NCBI GenBank assembly: GCA_040755395.1
Contig: JBFMAX010000001.1
Span: 62,001 to 126,000, forward strand
Length of the DNA: 64,000 bases
DNA from: Nitrospirota bacterium
GTDB taxonomy: Bacteria > Nitrospirota > Nitrospiria > Nitrospirales > Nitrospiraceae
Direction: 5' to 3'
A model generated the notes under the pieces. It did no database searches. It was not told where the DNA came from and saw nothing but the letters and a program-made list of their open reading frames with translations. The translations under genes were made by a program, and so were the position numbers. Of the stretch, positions 21,872-44,942 are shown piece after piece (within the stretch, counting starts at the first letter, position 1; each line of letters begins with the position of its first letter).

Positions 21872-21971
21872 TCCGATTGTACGAGGATACCCCTCCTTAT
21901 CGGAGAGATCCCTATACAGACGCAATCCGGGCCACGCTCTCCTGCAGCCAGATCGGCCACTGAACGCGAGC

Positions 21972-23477
21972 TTATTCATACCGCAACGCCTCGATCGGAT
22001 TGAGGCGCGCGGCCTTGTTGGCGGGGTAGAGGCCGAAGAACAGCCCGACAGCCAGCGAAAACAGGAAGGCCACGACAACCGATTCCGCCGAGATGATCGT
22101 CGGCCAGCCGGCCACGACGGTCGTGAGCCGGGCGCCGGCGATGCCGAGCAGGATTCCCACGATGCCGCCGACCAGGCTCAAGGTCATGGCCTCGATCAGG
22201 AATTGAACCAGGATGTGGCGCCGCTTCGCACCCACCGCCATACGAACGCCGATCTCCCTCGTCCGTTCGGTCACCGACACCAGCAGAATGTTCATGATCC
22301 CGATTCCGGCCCCCAGTAACGATACGGCGGCAACCACTGCCAACATTTTGGTCAGCTCCGCATCTGCCGCCTGACCGACACCGCTCATCTCAACGTCCGT
22401 TTTAATCGTAAAGTCGTCCGCTTGACTCGGTCCCTTTCTATGGCGTTCCCGCAACACCGACCGGACCTGCTCGATCGCCAGCGGGATTTCTTCGCGCCCG
22501 TGTGTGGAAGCCAAAATCGCCTCTACCGGTTCCGACAGCGAGCGGCCCTTTACTCTCTGTAGCGCGGTAGAAAACGGGACATAAATCACATCGTCCATGT
22601 CGTAGCCGAAGGCGTTCACACCTTTTGGTCTTAAGACCCCGACCACCTCAAATCCCCACGCTGGGGCGGAGCAACCGGATGGAAGCGCCGGATCGGCACC
22701 ATTGCGGCTCAAGGAACTCTGCAACGGTTCATACAACGAAAGGGGACCTTGTCCCAAACAGGGCCAACGCAGACCTCCGCCTGTACATGGTAGCTCTCTC
22801 GCTCCGGTCTCCGACTTCCCTGGTCGGGCTTTCTGCTCGAGCAACGGAAAAGGTCGGACGCATCCTGCATTGACCTGCGCCCCTTCACCTGTTCCCTTCG
22901 TTGAACCATTCGACGGGACGGCGCTTTTGGACAGTCGTATCTGTGCGGATATCGCTTCCTCTCCGATCTCAAAAAGATTCTCAAGGACCGTTCGTCCGAC
23001 TATGGCAACCGACTTGTTGCGTACGAGATCTTCCTCGTCAAAAGGCCTGCCCGCGACAAAGGACCAGTTGCGGATCTCCAAGCAACTCGGAGTAATTCCG
23101 ACGACACGCGTTTTCCAATTCCGAGACCCGCGGACTGCCTGCACCGTTTCTCCGACCGTCCAGCAAGTCGACTTTAACAGGGGAACGGCTTCCTGCAACG
23201 CCTGCCCATCCGCAACCGTTAACGCCGCGGAAATTTCCGGGGTCTGCCGAATCCCACGAACCATCGGTGCGCCAGGATTCACGAAGATTGCATTGGTCCC
23301 GATTGCGAGAATCTGATCGACCACGGCCGACTTCGCACCGCTACCGATCGCGATGGTGATCAAAACGGCGCCGACCCCAAGACCCAGACTCGCGATGCTG
23401 AGCAAGGACCGAAAAGGATGGCGAGCCGCTCCATCAATACCGACTCGGATGAGCTCTCTGACGGCGACCCGAACCAT
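21972..23477 (-). CDS. MacB-type ABC permease, paralogue 2, with internal insertion
   Basis: 501 aa. It has the FtsX/MacB layout: N-terminal helix, periplasmic core, and three C-terminal helices ending in GLYPANKAARLNPIEALRYE. It lacks its own ATPase and follows macA-macB genes on the same strand, so it probably shares the ATPase at 24818-25543. Compared with the paralogue at 23583-24818 it has about 85 extra residues between QIRL and FEVVGVLRPKG, rich in Gly, Pro, Ser and Cys. The extra DNA is framed by inverted arms. Its last 109 codons are nearly identical in DNA to the paralogue. Confidence 0.8.
   Translation of the reverse strand: MVRVAVRELIRVGIDGAARHPFRSLLSIASLGLGVGAVLITIAIGSGAKSAVVDQILAIGTNAIFVNPGAPMVRGIRQTPEISAALTVADGQALQEAVPLLKSTCWTVGETVQAVRGSRNWKTRVVGITPSCLEIRNWSFVAGRPFDEEDLVRNKSVAIVGRTVLENLFEIGEEAISAQIRLSKSAVPSNGSTKGTGEGAQVNAGCVRPFPLLEQKARPGKSETGARELPCTGGGLRWPCLGQGPLSLYEPLQSSLSRNGADPALPSGCSAPAWGFEVVGVLRPKGVNAFGYDMDDVIYVPFSTALQRVKGRSLSEPVEAILASTHGREEIPLAIEQVRSVLRERHRKGPSQADDFTIKTDVEMSGVGQAADAELTKMLAVVAAVSLLGAGIGIMNILLVSVTERTREIGVRMAVGAKRRHILVQFLIEAMTLSLVGGIVGILLGIAGARLTTVVAGWPTIISAESVVVAFLFSLAVGLFFGLYPANKAARLNPIEALRYE
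21980..22308. repeat. near-identical 329-bp tract, copy 1 (permease 3' end)
   Basis: Matches 23591-23919 with one mismatch that I can see (C at 22257 against T). Identity stops abruptly at 22309/23920, beyond which the two permease genes are clearly diverged. This pattern points to recent gene conversion. Confidence 0.9.
22726..22907. repeat. inverted-arm insertion inside the permease gene
   Basis: Arms GGTTCATACAACGAAAGGGGA (22726-22746, split by small gaps) and TGTTCCCTTCGTTGAACC (22890-22907) are complementary. They bracket most of the sequence absent from the paralogue. The insert keeps the reading frame open. Confidence 0.5.
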
Positions 23478-23582
23478 GGTCGTTCCGCTCTGCTGCGGTT
23501 ATGGGGATTCGGCATCCGTGGGCCGAAGCATCCGAATCACCTGGGACACGATGGCGAGAGATCCGCTTCGCCGGACATCGCC

Positions 23583-24818
23583 TCATTCGTACCGCAACGC
23601 CTCGATCGGATTGAGGCGCGCGGCCTTGTTGGCGGGGTAGAGGCCGAAGAACAGCCCGACAGCCAGCGAAAACAGGAAGGCCACGACAACCGATTCCGCC
23701 GAGATGATCGTCGGCCAGCCGGCCACGACGGTCGTGAGCCGGGCGCCGGCGATGCCGAGCAGGATTCCCACGATGCCGCCGACCAGGCTCAAGGTCATGG
23801 CCTCGATCAGGAATTGAACCAGGATGTGGCGCCGCTTCGCACCCACCGCCATACGAACGCCGATCTCTCTCGTCCGTTCGGTCACCGACACCAGCAGAAT
23901 GTTCATGATCCCGATTCCGCCGACCAGCAACGACACCGACGCGATCGCAAAGAGCATGACCGTCAAGGTCTGGCTGGTCCCTTCCTGCACCCTGCCGATG
24001 TCCACCTGCGTCCGGACCGTGAAGTCGTCGGGCTGGTCCGGCTGCAGACGATGGCGCGCTCGTAAGACCTCGCGGATCTGCTCCACCGCTTCCGGCAGGT
24101 CTTCCGCCCGATCGGTTGAAGCGAAGAGGGCGCCGACCGAGCCGAGGAACATGGTGCCGAAGACCTTGCGTTCGGCCGTCGTGAACGGAATGAAAATGAT
24201 ATCGTCCTGGTCCGAACCCTGGGCGGATTGGCCCTTGGGCGCGAGCACACCGATGACGCGGAACGGCACGTTTTTGATCCGGATCGTCGCGCCGACCGGC
24301 TCCTCGCCCGGATCGAACAGGTTTTCGACCACCGTCTGTCCGACCAAGGCCACACGCGCGGCGCTATCCATGTCGGCCTGCGTGATAGGCCCACCGCTGA
24401 CGAAGGACCAGTCCCGGATTGTCAGATAGCCGGGGGAGATCCCGTTCACCGGGCCGTTCCAATTCTTGTTGCCGTTGACGATCTGCATCACGTCGCGCTT
24501 CGCCCAGGCCGTTTCACGCAGCAAGGGAACCCGCTTTTTCAGTTCCAACGCGTCCGTCACCGTCAAGGTCACGGCGCCGCCCTGTCCCCCGCGAACGCCG
24601 CCCACCGTCGTCGCGCCGGGCAGGATGATGATCACGTTGGTGCCCATGCTGGCCACCTGCGCCTGCACGGCCGCGCGCGCGCCCTGGCCTATGCTGACCA
24701 TGGCGATGACGGCGCCGACGCCGATGACGATGCCCAACATCGTCAAGCCGGCCCGCATCCGATTCCGGCCGAGAATACGCAGGGCCGTGACGACGGTCAA
24801 CCAGACGAACGTCGACAT
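23583..24818 (-). CDS. MacB-type ABC permease, paralogue 1
   Basis: 411 aa. MSTFVWLTVVTALRILGRNRMRAGLTMLGIVIGVGAVIAM is the typical first cytoplasmic segment and helix. A periplasmic MacB_PCD core follows (about 45-270), then three C-terminal helices (SLLVGGIGIMNILLVSVTERTREIGVRMAVGAKR). It acts with an ATPase and a MacA adaptor to export substrates through an outer-membrane channel. ATG at 24818 overlaps the ATPase stop (TGATG), so the two are translationally coupled. Confidence 0.93.
   Translation of the reverse strand: MSTFVWLTVVTALRILGRNRMRAGLTMLGIVIGVGAVIAMVSIGQGARAAVQAQVASMGTNVIIILPGATTVGGVRGGQGGAVTLTVTDALELKKRVPLLRETAWAKRDVMQIVNGNKNWNGPVNGISPGYLTIRDWSFVSGGPITQADMDSAARVALVGQTVVENLFDPGEEPVGATIRIKNVPFRVIGVLAPKGQSAQGSDQDDIIFIPFTTAERKVFGTMFLGSVGALFASTDRAEDLPEAVEQIREVLRARHRLQPDQPDDFTVRTQVDIGRVQEGTSQTLTVMLFAIASVSLLVGGIGIMNILLVSVTERTREIGVRMAVGAKRRHILVQFLIEAMTLSLVGGIVGILLGIAGARLTTVVAGWPTIISAESVVVAFLFSLAVGLFFGLYPANKAARLNPIEALRYE
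23591..23919. repeat. near-identical 329-bp tract, copy 2 (permease 3' end)
   Basis: Second copy of the tract at 21980-22308, offset 1611 bp, same orientation. See that entry. Confidence 0.9.
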
Positions 24819-34107: not shown

Positions 34108-34117
34108 CCGATGCATC

Positions 34118-34205
34118 ATAGCTAGGGGAGCCACTCGGCTGAGAGTCCGCCTGCCGGACGACCCTCAGAACCTGACCTGGATAATACCAGCGTAGGGAAG
34201 CGGAG
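34118..34205 (+). ncRNA. TPP riboswitch (THI element)
   Basis: The aptamer core is clear: AGGGGAGCC..CGGCTGAGA near 34124-34146, then GACCCTCAGAACCTGACCTGG (split at 34158-34178) and ATACCAGCGTAGGGAAGC near 34184. These are the conserved CTGAGA and pyrophosphate-helix motifs. A strong terminator follows at 34230-34258, so TPP binding should cause early termination before thiC. A stem paired to both could not be resolved by eye. Confidence 0.95.
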
Positions 34206-34229
34206 AGAGCGTTGATGTCCGGCGACTCA

Positions 34230-34278: not shown

Positions 34279-36286
<2,008 letters not shown>

Positions 36287-36292
36287 GAACCT

Positions 36293-36360
36293 GGCAAGAG
36301 GCACGAGGCAAGGGGCGAGCGGATTGACCTCTCGCCTCTAGCCCCTTGCCCCTAGCCCCC
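36293..36360 (+). repeat. family-A word-repeat element between thiC and thi4
   Basis: GGCAAGAGGCACGAGGCAAGGGGC faces CCTCTCGCCTCTAGCCCCTTGCC (partial) across GGATTGA. It begins 7 nt after the thiC stop. Confidence 0.7.
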
Positions 36361-36373
36361 ATGGAGTGCCATC

Positions 36374-37174
36374 ATGGCCAAACCCAAACCCTCCCCTTTG
36401 CGCGAACGAGACATCACCCGGCAGATCGCGCGGGAATACTACAAGGAGTTCGATCAGCTCATCGAGAGCGACGTCATCGTCGTCGGCGCCGGACCCTCGG
36501 GCTTGATCTGCGCCCATGATCTGGCCGCGATGGGCTTCCGCACGTTGGTCGTCGAGCAGGCCCTCGCCTTGGGAGGCGGCTTCTGGTCCGGCGGCTATCT
36601 GATGAACAAGGCGACGATCTGCGCGCCGGCCAATGAAATCCTCGAGGAGATCGGCGTGCCCTGCAAACAGGTCAAGGACTGCGACGGCATGTATATCGTG
36701 GACCCGCCGCACGCGACCGGCGCTTTGATCGCCGCCGCGTACAAGGCGGGCGCCAAGATCATGAACCTGACGCGGGTCGTGGACTTGATTCTCCGGAACG
36801 ACGGCTTATTGGAAGGGGTCGTGGTCAATAACACGACCGCCGAGATGGCGGGTCACGACGTGATTCACGTGGACCCGATCGCCCTGGAAAGCAAGGTGGT
36901 GGTGGACGCCACAGGCCACGACGCCGTGGTGGTGGACCTGCTCCACAAGCGGAACCTCTACAAGCCGGTGCCGGGCAACGGCGCCATGTGGGTTTCCCGC
37001 TCGGAGGAAGAAGTCATGGACCGGACCGGCGAAGTCTATCCCAATTGCTTCGTGGTAGGATTAGCTGTAGCGGCCGTGTACGGCACCCCGCGCATGGGCC
37101 CGGCCTTCGGCTCCATGTTGCTCTCCGGCCGGTACGGAGCGGAGCTCATTAAGAAAAAAATAAAACAAGAGTGA
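36374..37174 (+). CDS. thi4: sulfide-dependent thiazole synthase, Thi4/Thi1 family (His type)
   Basis: Makes the ADP-thiazole precursor of thiamin from NAD and glycine. 266 aa with a Rossmann motif VVGAGPSGL (about 36-44), GGGFWSGGYLMN, and a C-terminal GMAV-like GLAVAAVYGTPRMGPAFGSMLLSG. Yeast Thi4 donates sulfur from an active-site cysteine and so works once. Here the equivalent position in VIHVDP is His165, as in archaeal catalytic Thi4 enzymes that use free sulfide. GGAG is 8 nt before ATG. The stop TGA is part of a GTGATTAAG repeat word. Confidence 0.93.
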   Translation: MAKPKPSPLRERDITRQIAREYYKEFDQLIESDVIVVGAGPSGLICAHDLAAMGFRTLVVEQALALGGGFWSGGYLMNKATICAPANEILEEIGVPCKQVKDCDGMYIVDPPHATGALIAAAYKAGAKIMNLTRVVDLILRNDGLLEGVVVNNTTAEMAGHDVIHVDPIALESKVVVDATGHDAVVVDLLHKRNLYKPVPGNGAMWVSRSEEEVMDRTGEVYPNCFVVGLAVAAVYGTPRMGPAFGSMLLSGRYGAELIKKKIKQE

Positions 37175-37254
37175 TTAAGTAACTGGTGATTAAGTGATTG
37201 AAGCGCCGAATCACTTAGTTGCCAATCGCTCAATCACGAATCACTCAATCGCTT
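37172..37254. repeat. family-F word-repeat element (GTGATTAAGTGATT)
   Basis: GTGATTAAGTAACTGGTGATTAAGTGATTG (interrupted) faces CAATCGCTCAATCACGAATCACTC across a short spacer. The first word contains the thi4 stop codon. Confidence 0.65.
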
Positions 37255-37260
37255 CTGACC

Positions 37261-37776
37261 ATGGACCTTCAGGATTTCTTAATACAGGGCGAGGGCAGCG
37301 AAGAGGACAAGAAGGAAGCCTGGAATCTGTTCCAGCGGGCGTACGAACACCAGATGAAAGGCGATCTTGAGGAAGCGGTCCGGCTGTACAAGAAGTCCAT
37401 CGAAACCCATCCGACCGCCGAGGCGTATACCTTCCTGGGGTGGACCTACAGTTTCATGGGCAGACTCGACGAAGCGATCGAGGAATGCCATAAGGCCATC
37501 GCGCAAGACCCGGATTTCGGCAATCCCTACAATGACATCGGCGCCTACCTGATCGAGAAGGGCCAGTTCGACGAAGCCATTCCCTGGTTCGAGAAGGCCA
37601 TGCAGGCCAGACGATACGAAAGCCCCGCCTTTCCTCATCTCAATCTCGGACGGGTCTATGAACGCAAGGGCCGCTGGAACGACGCGATCGAGTGTTATAA
37701 AAAGGCGCTGGCGCTCAACCCTAATTACGCGCTGGCCAAGCGCGCGCTCGGACGCCTCATCAGCATGATGAACTGA
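37261..37776 (+). CDS. TPR-repeat protein
   Basis: 171 aa, ATG 37261. Four tetratricopeptide repeats can be read: AYEHQMKGDLEEAVRLYKKSIETHP, AYTFLGWTYSFMGRLDEAIEECHKAI, PYNDIGAYLIEKGQFDEAIPWFEKAM and LGRVYERKGRWNDAIECYKKALALNP. These scaffolds mediate protein contacts. No signal peptide is present, so it is cytoplasmic. The specific partner is unknown. It precedes the receiver-like gene, separated by a word-repeat arm. Confidence 0.85.
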   Translation: MDLQDFLIQGEGSEEDKKEAWNLFQRAYEHQMKGDLEEAVRLYKKSIETHPTAEAYTFLGWTYSFMGRLDEAIEECHKAIAQDPDFGNPYNDIGAYLIEKGQFDEAIPWFEKAMQARRYESPAFPHLNLGRVYERKGRWNDAIECYKKALALNPNYALAKRALGRLISMMN

Positions 37777-37783
37777 AACCGGC

Positions 37784-37930
37784 GGTCTATCTGGTCTGTC
37801 TCGTCTATCTGGTCCGTTTGGTTGGGGAAAAGGCGCATCAGGTGGTCCGGCTGCGAGGCTGCGTGCGGGTGCACAGATGACGACGAATCATAACAAGACA
37901 GACCAGAAAGACCGGACAGACCAAAAGACC
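37784..37930. repeat. family-G word-repeat element overlapping a coding region
   Basis: Left arm 37784-37820 (GGTCTATCTGGTCTGTC..TATCTGGTCCGTTTGG) and right arm 37895-37930 (AGACAGACCAGAAAGACC, GGACAGACC) are complementary. The left arm begins 8 nt after the TPR-gene stop. The right arm is the N-terminal coding sequence of the next gene (codons 7-18). Confidence 0.65.
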
Positions 37931-38308
37931 ATTTTAGTCGCCGTCAACGACATCTTCTTCTACACCAAAATCCGCGATGCGCTGTTGCCGAACGGCTACA
38001 CATTGGAGCGAGTCCGGACGCTGGACGAGGTGCCGCAGAAGCTGTCCGCGTTGCGTCCCACGGCCATGATCGTGAACATGAACGACCCTTCGCTGGATGC
38101 CTTTCGGGCGCTGGAGACGGTCAGAGGCGGCAACAGCTTGCGGTCCATGCCGATCCTGGCCTTCGCCAATCACGAAGAGGTGGAGACCTGGAAACGGGCC
38201 AAGGAGTTGGGCGTCACCAAGATCGTGTCCAGGAATGAATTCTCGGCGAGGACGCGGGAATTGATCAACGAGTTAATGAGCAAACAGCCAACAGCGAGCA
38301 GCGAGTAG
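37877..38308 (+). CDS. receiver-like protein with repeat-derived ends
   Basis: 143 aa. Residues 19 to about 135 look like a response-regulator receiver fold: ILVAVNDIFFYTKIRDALLPNGY, MIVNMNDPSLDAFRALE and PILAFANHEEVETWKRAKELGVTKIVSRNEF. The phosphoacceptor is expected in NMNDPS but the acidic pocket is incomplete, so it may not be phosphorylated. Residues 7-18 (KTDQKDRTDQK) come from the family-G arm. The C-terminal SKQPTASSE and the stop codon come from the family-C arm that follows. Confidence 0.75.
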   Translation: MTTNHNKTDQKDRTDQKTILVAVNDIFFYTKIRDALLPNGYTLERVRTLDEVPQKLSALRPTAMIVNMNDPSLDAFRALETVRGGNSLRSMPILAFANHEEVETWKRAKELGVTKIVSRNEFSARTRELINELMSKQPTASSE

Positions 38309-38353
38309 CTCCAACCACTGGGCTACGAGCTATTGGCTATGTGCTACTCGCTC
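38280..38353. repeat. family-C word-repeat element overlapping a stop codon
   Basis: GCAAACAGCCAACAGCGAGC..GAGTAGC (38280-38309) faces GGCTACGAGC..GGCTATGTGCTACTCGC (38321-38352). The left arm encodes the last 9 residues and the TAG stop of the receiver-like gene; the right arm runs up to the ygfZ start. Confidence 0.65.
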
Positions 38354-39460
38354 ATGCGCAAAATGAAACACTCCCTTCTCCAAGACCAGCACGCGAAACT
38401 GGGCGCCGTTTTTGAAGAGGTCGCCGGTTGGACCATGCCCGCGCACTACGGCGATGTGCGGGCCGAGCACGGGGCCGTGCGCCGGGTGGTCGGCCTCGCG
38501 GACCTGTCGCATCGAGGCCAAGTCCGCGTCACCGGCGAGGATCGGATCAAATGGCTGCAGAGCGTGATCAGCAACGACATCCTGTCGCTCTCAGTCGGCC
38601 AGGGCGCCTATTCCAGCTTGCTGACCCACAAGGGCAAGATGCTCACGTATTTCCGGGTCTACCTGCTGGCCGACTCGGTCATGCTCGAAGACGTCGGCGA
38701 GATCGGCGAGAGCACGTTTCAGGCCCTGCGCAAGTTTCTCCTGTTCGGCACGAAGGCCAAGCTGGAGAATTGCGCGGAAAGCTGGGGGCTCCTGCTGATC
38801 AGCGGTCCGAAGGCGCCGGAGGTACTCAAGGCGGCCTTCAAGGTCGAGGTCGGCCATCTCCGGCCGCTGCATGTCCTGACTCACCGGATCGGCGGCCTGC
38901 CGGCCTTGCTCATCCGTACCGAAGAGACCGGCGAGACCGATATCGAGATCATGATCTCCGCAGACGGCGTGCAGACTGCGTGGGAAGCGCTCATGCAGGC
39001 CGGCCTACCGTTCGGCATCAGGCCGTTCGGCGGTCATGCGAGGGAAGCGCTGCGTCTGGAAGCGGGATTGCCGAAGGCCGGTCCGGATCTCAACGAGGAC
39101 ATCGTGCCGCCTGAAGCGAATCTTGAAGGCAAAGCGTTCAGTCTCACCAAAGGCTGCTATCCCGGCCAGGAAGTCGTCGCCAGGATGGACACCTATGGCA
39201 GCGTGCGGCGGCGGTTGGTCGGCTTGGTGTTGAAGGAGCCGGTCATTCCGCCGAGAGGCGCCAAGCTCTTCAGCGGCGAGCGGGAAGTCGGCTGGATCAG
39301 CAGCGCCACCTACTCACCGCAACTCGACAGCGTCATCGCGTTCGGATTTCCGCTCCGCGATTTCACCAAACCGGACACCGCGCTCACGGTCGACATCAAT
39401 GGCCGGCGCTACGACGCCACGGTCCGACCGCTCCCGTTTTACGCCCGACCTGCGGGTTAG
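38354..39460 (+). CDS. ygfZ: folate-binding YgfZ / GcvT-like protein
   Basis: 368 aa from ATG 38354 (38363 is as likely). GcvT-like N-terminus (LGAVFEEVAGWTMPAHYGDVRAEH..VVGLADLSHRG), and the YgfZ signature LTKGCYPGQEVVAR (about 260-273) with its reactive cysteine. YgfZ uses tetrahydrofolate to support repair or assembly of some Fe-S enzymes. It is not the glycine cleavage T-protein, because that lacks KGCYxGQE. Convergent with, and overlapping by 4 nt, the lipoprotein gene that follows. Confidence 0.9.
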   Translation: MRKMKHSLLQDQHAKLGAVFEEVAGWTMPAHYGDVRAEHGAVRRVVGLADLSHRGQVRVTGEDRIKWLQSVISNDILSLSVGQGAYSSLLTHKGKMLTYFRVYLLADSVMLEDVGEIGESTFQALRKFLLFGTKAKLENCAESWGLLLISGPKAPEVLKAAFKVEVGHLRPLHVLTHRIGGLPALLIRTEETGETDIEIMISADGVQTAWEALMQAGLPFGIRPFGGHAREALRLEAGLPKAGPDLNEDIVPPEANLEGKAFSLTKGCYPGQEVVARMDTYGSVRRRLVGLVLKEPVIPPRGAKLFSGEREVGWISSATYSPQLDSVIAFGFPLRDFTKPDTALTVDINGRRYDATVRPLPFYARPAG

Positions 39461-44784: not shown

Positions 44785-44942
44785 GAAAGGGGTCGGGAGT
44801 CTTTACTCTGGATCCTTTTAGGCCGGCCCCGCAGCAGAGCGGACGTTCGCCTTGGCTTCCGACCCCTTTGTGTGTTCTCAAGAGATCGTCTAAAAGACTC
44901 CCGACCCCTTTTTTGTCGTTCGACCCCTTTTTGTCGTTCGCC
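44785..44942. repeat. REP-like element (GGGGTCGGGAGTC inverted repeat)
   Basis: AAAGGGGTCGGGAGTCTTT (44785-44803) is the reverse complement of AAAGACTCCCGACCCCTTT near 44893-44912. A direct repeat CGACCCCTTTTTGTCGTTCG follows twice (about 44903-44942). GGGGTCGGGAGTC-type palindromes often flank IS200/REP-associated (Y1) transposases, though no transposase gene is present here. Confidence 0.55.

Follow-up and report, generated by a model that had tools for sequence, protein, structure and literature searches.

Can the ends of a protein be written by the repeat DNA that lies between genes? The question is raised by a receiver-like gene in a 64,000-nucleotide stretch (the window) of the approximately 4.1-Mb genome of a Nitrospira-type bacterium, whose relatives include Nitrospira and Nitrospirae genomes, among them N. 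moscoviensis. The original prediction held that arms of two intergenic repeat elements make up both ends of the gene, and called this a rare case of absorption. Based on the analyses described here, we put the probability at about 75% that both ends are hairpin arms read in frame and tolerated by the fold, with an old, inherited element upstream and a faster turnover downstream.

Hairpins in the gene row

The gene belongs to a codirectional row at 34343-39460 (window coordinates, plus strand throughout) that consists of thiC (presumably, judged by its sequence), thi4 (Pfam PF01946), a TPR protein gene (37261-37776, Pfam TPR families), the receiver-like gene (37877-38308) and a ygfZ-like gene of the GCV_T type (38354-39460, Pfam PF01571 and PF08669; alternative candidate starts are TTG 38333 and ATG 38363). 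The row is headed by a TPP riboswitch at 34114-34215 (Rfam RF00059, 70.1 bits). All four internal gaps contain an inverted repeat of a different repeat family, with arms that are runs of short degenerate units, mostly of 7 or 9 bp. The thiC/thi4 gap carries 7-bp GGC-rich units (36293-36357; score 16 compared to 10 in 10 shuffles) and the thi4/TPR gap carries TGATTAAG units (37170-37253; 17 compared to 10, RNA fold z -4.06), with the thi4 TGA stop (37172-37174) inside its left arm. The other two are found at 37784-37930 and 38276-38355. Three of the four reach reading frames: at the thi4 stop, at the receiver N terminus, and at the receiver C terminus together with the ygfZ candidate ATG. No Rfam family matching the hairpins was found, nor was any terminator-like site on the plus strand between 36200 and 38500. 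An intrinsic terminator role on this strand was ruled out, as there is no T-run or terminator-like site, and the hairpins are most likely REP-like RNA structures between cistrons.

The element upstream of the receiver (G element) was identified with an inverted-repeat scan. Its left arm (37784-37823), built of the 9-bp units GGTCTATCT/GGTCTGTCT, occupies the gap 3' of the TPR gene, and its right arm (37892-37930), also evident from the unit register, is codons 6-18 of the receiver gene, NKTDQKDRTDQKT. The arms are complementary at 32 of 40 aligned positions and score 23, whereas none of 355 shuffled windows scored above 18 (the highest value reached). The RNA of 37784-37932 has a folding energy of -69.2 kcal/mol (z -6.25), a value reached by none of 200 shuffles, with the receiver start ATG in the loop, 15 nt 5' of the right arm. 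The right arm was thus correctly placed inside the gene by the original prediction, which had it begin one codon later, at codon 7.

The element downstream of the receiver (C element) is real, yet far weaker than the G element: its score was 13 compared to 9 in 10 shuffles (10 compared to 7 in a narrower test), and its RNA fold (z -2.65) was equalled by 2 of 200 shuffles. In the inverted-repeat tests its left arm (38276-38313) covered the last ten codons of the gene, 134-143 (MSKQPTASSE), and the TAG stop; nine codons had been proposed. The right arm (38319-38355), located by the inverted-repeat scan and the sequence, adjoins ygfZ as proposed, and ends inside its candidate start ATG (38354-38356) rather than before it.

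The receiver fold and its ends

The predicted protein has 143 residues, with the fold core at residues 18-135, and matches Pfam Response_reg at E 2.6e-4, below the cut-off. AlphaFold modelling with 34 aligned orthologues gave a mean pLDDT of 83.9 and an alternating strand/helix receiver fold, for which the best PDB matches in Foldseek were nearly all receiver domains (query TM-score 0.64-0.74). In sequence the core resembles PleD and CheY-like proteins. The pLDDT was below 50 only at residues 1-14 and 138-143, which are the two repeat-derived ends, although the low values also reflect poor alignment there. As both ends lie outside a complete domain, they would be replaceable, and repeat-coded ends may be tolerated since the fold is complete without them.

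The usual set of receiver phosphorylation residues was not found across the 34 orthologues. We take positions 67, 24 and 119, assigned by eye, to be the columns of the phospho-acceptor Asp, the acidic pair and the Lys. Position 67 is N in 26 orthologues and D in 8 (acceptor motif LNMND in most, LDMND in some), position 24 is never acidic, and position 119 is R in all 34. With N as the common acceptor residue and R at the lysine position, conventional phosphorylation of this receiver is improbable.

Orthologues with and without the upstream element

Of 147 genomes from the family, 141 carry the receiver gene (E <=0.001). From 171 loci we dropped L071 (partial match) and L098 (no FFY motif) and merged identical 210-nt regions, which gave 147 distinct regions; after removal of L072 (454-nt gap), 146 junctions were left for the N-terminal gap tests, all with the TPR-receiver gene order. 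Between the TPR stop and the TILVAV of the receiver core, 54 of them have a compact spacing (18-31 nt) and 92 a long one (39-184 nt). All 54 compact junctions have their nearest start 3-6 codons ahead of the core, so that orthologues lacking the element also lack the N-terminal end, as had been anticipated. The closest comparison is that of L143 and L164, which share 97.3% identity across 330 nt of the core and have gaps of 141 and 22 nt; the former begins MNTPGHLTDKTDQIDKT-TILVAI and the latter MSMPK-TILVAI.

In 56 of the 92 long gaps the inverted repeat was better than all 40 of its own shuffles, and in 41 it exceeded the top shuffle score of any gap (14). Borderline hairpins are flattered in these tests, because the real sequence was given the best of many split points and the shuffles one to three. 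The significant repeats mostly belong to the 9-bp-unit family, with units that are either C-rich (GGTCTATCT) or T-rich (GGTTTGTTT), and L022, L066, L069 and L129 have quite different repeat units in the same gap. In several loci, for example L059, L061 and L146, the left arm has decayed while the coding right arm remains. The N-terminal peptides vary among orthologues (TDQ, NQT, DKTDRID). Gap differences between close relatives include whole steps of 9 or 18 nt, and gain and loss in whole 9-bp units would keep the reading frame.

Among the 40 orthologues with at least two units, 116 of 124 right-arm units are in one phase modulo 9 relative to the core, and would therefore be read as D/N-Q-T/M. 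In 38 of these 40 orthologues the nearest canonical start is separated from the core by at least one unit, and in 30 by at least two. In several orthologues the only nearby ATG is within the right arm itself (ACCAAATGAACC). Downstream of codon 1, the gene in the window has no further canonical start before the TTG at codon 37, which is already within the fold. Since residue 18 opens the first strand, the extension must be translated if a canonical start is used, and we infer that both receiver ends are translated. Substitution in the extension was higher at third codon positions (0.132) than at the first two (0.066; Fisher p 0.014; the gap counts come from 15 of the 17 pairs, the core counts from all 17), and its overall rate was close to that of the non-coding left arm (0.104). 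Protein-level purifying selection on the extension is thereby weakly indicated, and since the signal is weak we do not claim selection on the peptide itself.

To describe the history of the element, a maximum-likelihood tree was made of the TPR protein and the receiver core with all 146 rows. On the 95 rows that could be scored as element or compact, 8 changes of state were counted, compared to a mean of 31 and a minimum of 23 in 200 shuffles; the 51 rows dropped were 36 without a significant repeat and 15 with a significant repeat that was not recognised as G type, including the G-like L054 and L143. This argues that the element has mostly been inherited, with at least 8 switches. A unit-like AACCAGATA persists ahead of the start in compact L056, and this suggests that the element was lost in its clade. 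We also followed two other sites of the 9-bp family in the window's genome. The family was kept in 1 of 29 relatives at one site (L177; 29 of 56 matched relatives covered) and in 0 of 7 at the other (L175; 7 of 25 covered), and the relatives there had other hairpin families or none.

According to the original prediction, conservation of the end sequences at the protein level in distant genera would refute it, and this was partly observed. T/N-D/N-Q repeats precede the core in genus groups g1, g2, g4, g5, g9, g13, g15 and g16 and in N. moscoviensis (L033), where the predicted N terminus is MNTNIDQIDKTDRIDQKTILVAV. At the other end, the tail KQPTASSE of the window resembles EQPTASS of L002 (g15), whose arm is also of the AACAGCG kind. 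At the DNA level these shared ends are explained by elements of one kind in the corresponding gap, and not by a conserved protein end independent of repeats.

Repeat families at the 3' end

For the C terminus, 113 of the 146 junctions were tested, the other 33 being outside the length limits. An inverted repeat better than shuffles was found in 56 of the 113, and in 49 of these 56 the left arm overlaps the end of the receiver frame by at least 9 nt. In 29 junctions (counted by eye) there is instead a 4-nt overlap of ygfZ with the receiver. The tails follow the repeat family. VIKS, VVKS or VLKS is a frequent ending where the units are AAGTC, SAVS-like tails come from TCAGC units, and GVRG and ARG are produced by GTGAGGC and GGCGAGAG units, respectively. 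When families were assigned by words, a rough method that classed 80 of 146 rows and left 66 unclear, 30 changes of state were counted on the 80 rows, compared to a mean of 43 and a minimum of 39 after shuffling. The 3' hairpin ends thus appear to turn over faster than the 5' element.

Five genomes of genus group g5 (L060, L157, L160, L161, L170) have the receiver and the ygfZ-like gene in a single open frame of 502-533 aa. This apparent gene fusion hints at a functional link.

Tandem-arm hairpins elsewhere in the genome

Together with the window, the survey took in 400 kb from its contig and 400 kb from another one (864 kb in total). There were 62 inverted repeats with a score of at least 18; 84 windows were observed at this level compared to about 9 from shuffled sequence. 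Gene junctions hold 42 of the 62, and 27 of these 42 have tandem arms, with a period of 7 in 22, 8 in 3 and 9 in 2. The tandem-arm hairpins are located in codirectional gaps in 26 cases, in a convergent gap once and never in a divergent one, compared to 301, 56 and 68 of 425 background gaps of 30-600 nt (binomial p 0.002 for the codirectional share). The 3' end of a gene, crudely called, is overlapped by at least 9 nt in 10 of the 42 junction hairpins; 5' overlaps were not counted as evidence, because the gene calls were crude ORF picks. Together with the 49 of 113 receiver junctions in which an arm enters the 3' end of the frame, these overlaps do not support the idea that such capture is rare.

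G-like units with at most one mismatch occur at about 10 places in the genome (clustered by eye). Some 9 of these are other sites, several of them complete hairpins, and the units are present in 15 of 61 relatives searched. Only low-mismatch hits count, because the pattern is nearly mirror-symmetric and a backwards-pattern control gave similar counts at 3 mismatches. In one g9 relative (G036), 68 exact matches of the 9-bp-family pattern were found compared to 7 in the window's genome, which looks like a large expansion, with a backwards control that is also high (54) owing to the same near symmetry. No link of the 9-bp family to Y1 transposases, the genes that REP/BIME repeats flank, was found among the 4 Y1_Tnp matches of the genome: none is flanked by G units, and one (L304) is near a different heptamer hairpin.

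Discussion

Our results support absorption of repeat DNA at both ends of the receiver, as seen from the arm coordinates, the orthologues with and without the element and the family-specific tails. The comparison of orthologues also supports a process that is recurrent rather than rare, with an N-terminal element common to several genera. The right arm of the G element, lying within the reading frame, would supply the N-terminal extension, and the left arm of the C element would supply the last ten codons and the stop. The upstream element appears to be old at this gap and mostly inherited, to gain and lose whole 9-bp units, and to have been lost or replaced several times. Downstream elements are probably exchanged more quickly, and each family encodes a tail of its own.

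The upstream hairpin might alternatively be a selected regulatory RNA, for example one that couples translation of the TPR protein and the receiver, with coding use as a side effect. The 9-bp family was kept in 40 of 146 junctions here compared to 1 of 29 and 0 of 7 at the two control sites, an unusual persistence that leaves room for a selected role. In addition, the receiver start codon is located in the loop or the stem, and the C content of left arms correlates with the G content of right arms (rho 0.66, n=31). Pairing of each locus's own arms was only modestly above that with arms of other loci (21.6 compared to 19.3; maximum of 2000 permutations 21.46), and the own arm was the best or tied partner in only 2 of 35 loci, so strict arm-by-arm co-evolution was not strongly supported. 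We consider this regulatory explanation unlikely, as there is no room for a hairpin in the 54 compact orthologues, unrelated hairpin families occupy the gap elsewhere, left arms have decayed where the coding arm was kept, and no Rfam family matched. It is still less probable that the N-terminal repeat peptide is ancestral and fed the repeat, the left arm having arisen by inverted copying of coding repeats. The single register in 40 orthologues is consistent with such an origin, as is the MNQTNQK that some orthologues keep without a left arm; against it stand the same units at the other genome sites and in 15 of 61 relatives, and the compact state in 54 of 146 junctions, the 97%-identical sister included.

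A mis-assigned receiver start, with the N-terminal arm as an untranslated 5' leader, appears the least probable explanation. REPs at predicted N termini are often extragenic according to the accessible part of PMC3733652. By eye there is also no strong Shine-Dalgarno sequence before ATG 37877. However, a start at the TTG of codon 37 would cut off the first strand together with most of helix 1, and in 38 of 40 element-bearing orthologues one or more units stay within the frame even from the nearest canonical start. We therefore retain the reading in which both ends are hairpin arms translated in frame.

Capture of repeats at gene ends is already known from Rickettsia palindromic elements (RPEs) and from REPs, in the accounts accessible to us, and stem-loop repeat families across coding-sequence borders have been catalogued (PMC2267715, as far as its accessible text goes). 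RPEs (approximately 150 bp) are described in the accessible part of PMC10969869 as palindromic repeats that enter reading frames and add peptide segments, as do the elements here. They are inserted in frame within ORFs and encode a conserved peptide, whereas here one arm per element is coding and forms a protein end, the N-terminal peptides vary and the C-terminal tails are family-specific. REP/BIME elements, in the accessible text of PMC3733652, are likewise palindromes in the gaps of unidirectional genes; slightly over 10% of them are at coding-region ends, with more at the NH2 end. The 26/1/0 placement of our tandem-arm hairpins agrees with a unidirectional or convergent and not divergent location. 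REP/BIME palindromes have a GTAG or CGTC tetranucleotide at one end, whereas the degenerate 7- to 9-bp tandem units have no such foot; the outer ends are GGTC and GACC in the G arms and ATGA and TCAT in the C arms. The TAACTGA heptanucleotide repeats of Beggiatoaceae (PMC4679880, accessible part) also have 7-bp units in gaps by start codons, some overlapping ORF ends, with indels in 7-nt steps, but they are direct repeats of one unit sequence and not complementary hairpin arms of many unit sequences. Tandem repeats of Borgs likewise evolve rapidly and create disordered protein regions; Borgs are archaeal extrachromosomal elements, and their repeats, in the part of PMC9879509 accessible to us, are not gene-junction hairpins. 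Within the terms and open papers searched, no description of the Nitrospira tandem-arm hairpins was found. New are these hairpins and the series with and without them at one gene.

This natural series shows the repeat as present, absent, replaced and decayed at the two ends of a single gene. It contains a species pair with 97%-identical cores and makes the origin of protein tails from non-coding repeats directly testable. It is also a warning that start and stop assignment in Nitrospira-type genomes depends on repeats. More tentatively, and at somewhat less than even odds, junction hairpins in Nitrospira may be a recurrent source of protein ends, in which left arms bring stops and right arms bring starts, the frame is kept by the 9-bp units, the repeat family dictates the terminal peptide, and the same protein has interchangeable tails at its N and C termini from one species to another.

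Two further repeats were observed in the window. A perfect 19-nt inverted repeat, AAAGGGGTCGGGAGTCTTT, is located at 44786-44911 and also near C1:331067 and C2:219899; its close copies elsewhere in the genome are without tandem units, making it another dispersed repeat. A 300-nt stretch is duplicated with 99% identity at 21971-22270 and 23582-23881, within two adjacent minus-strand ORFs.
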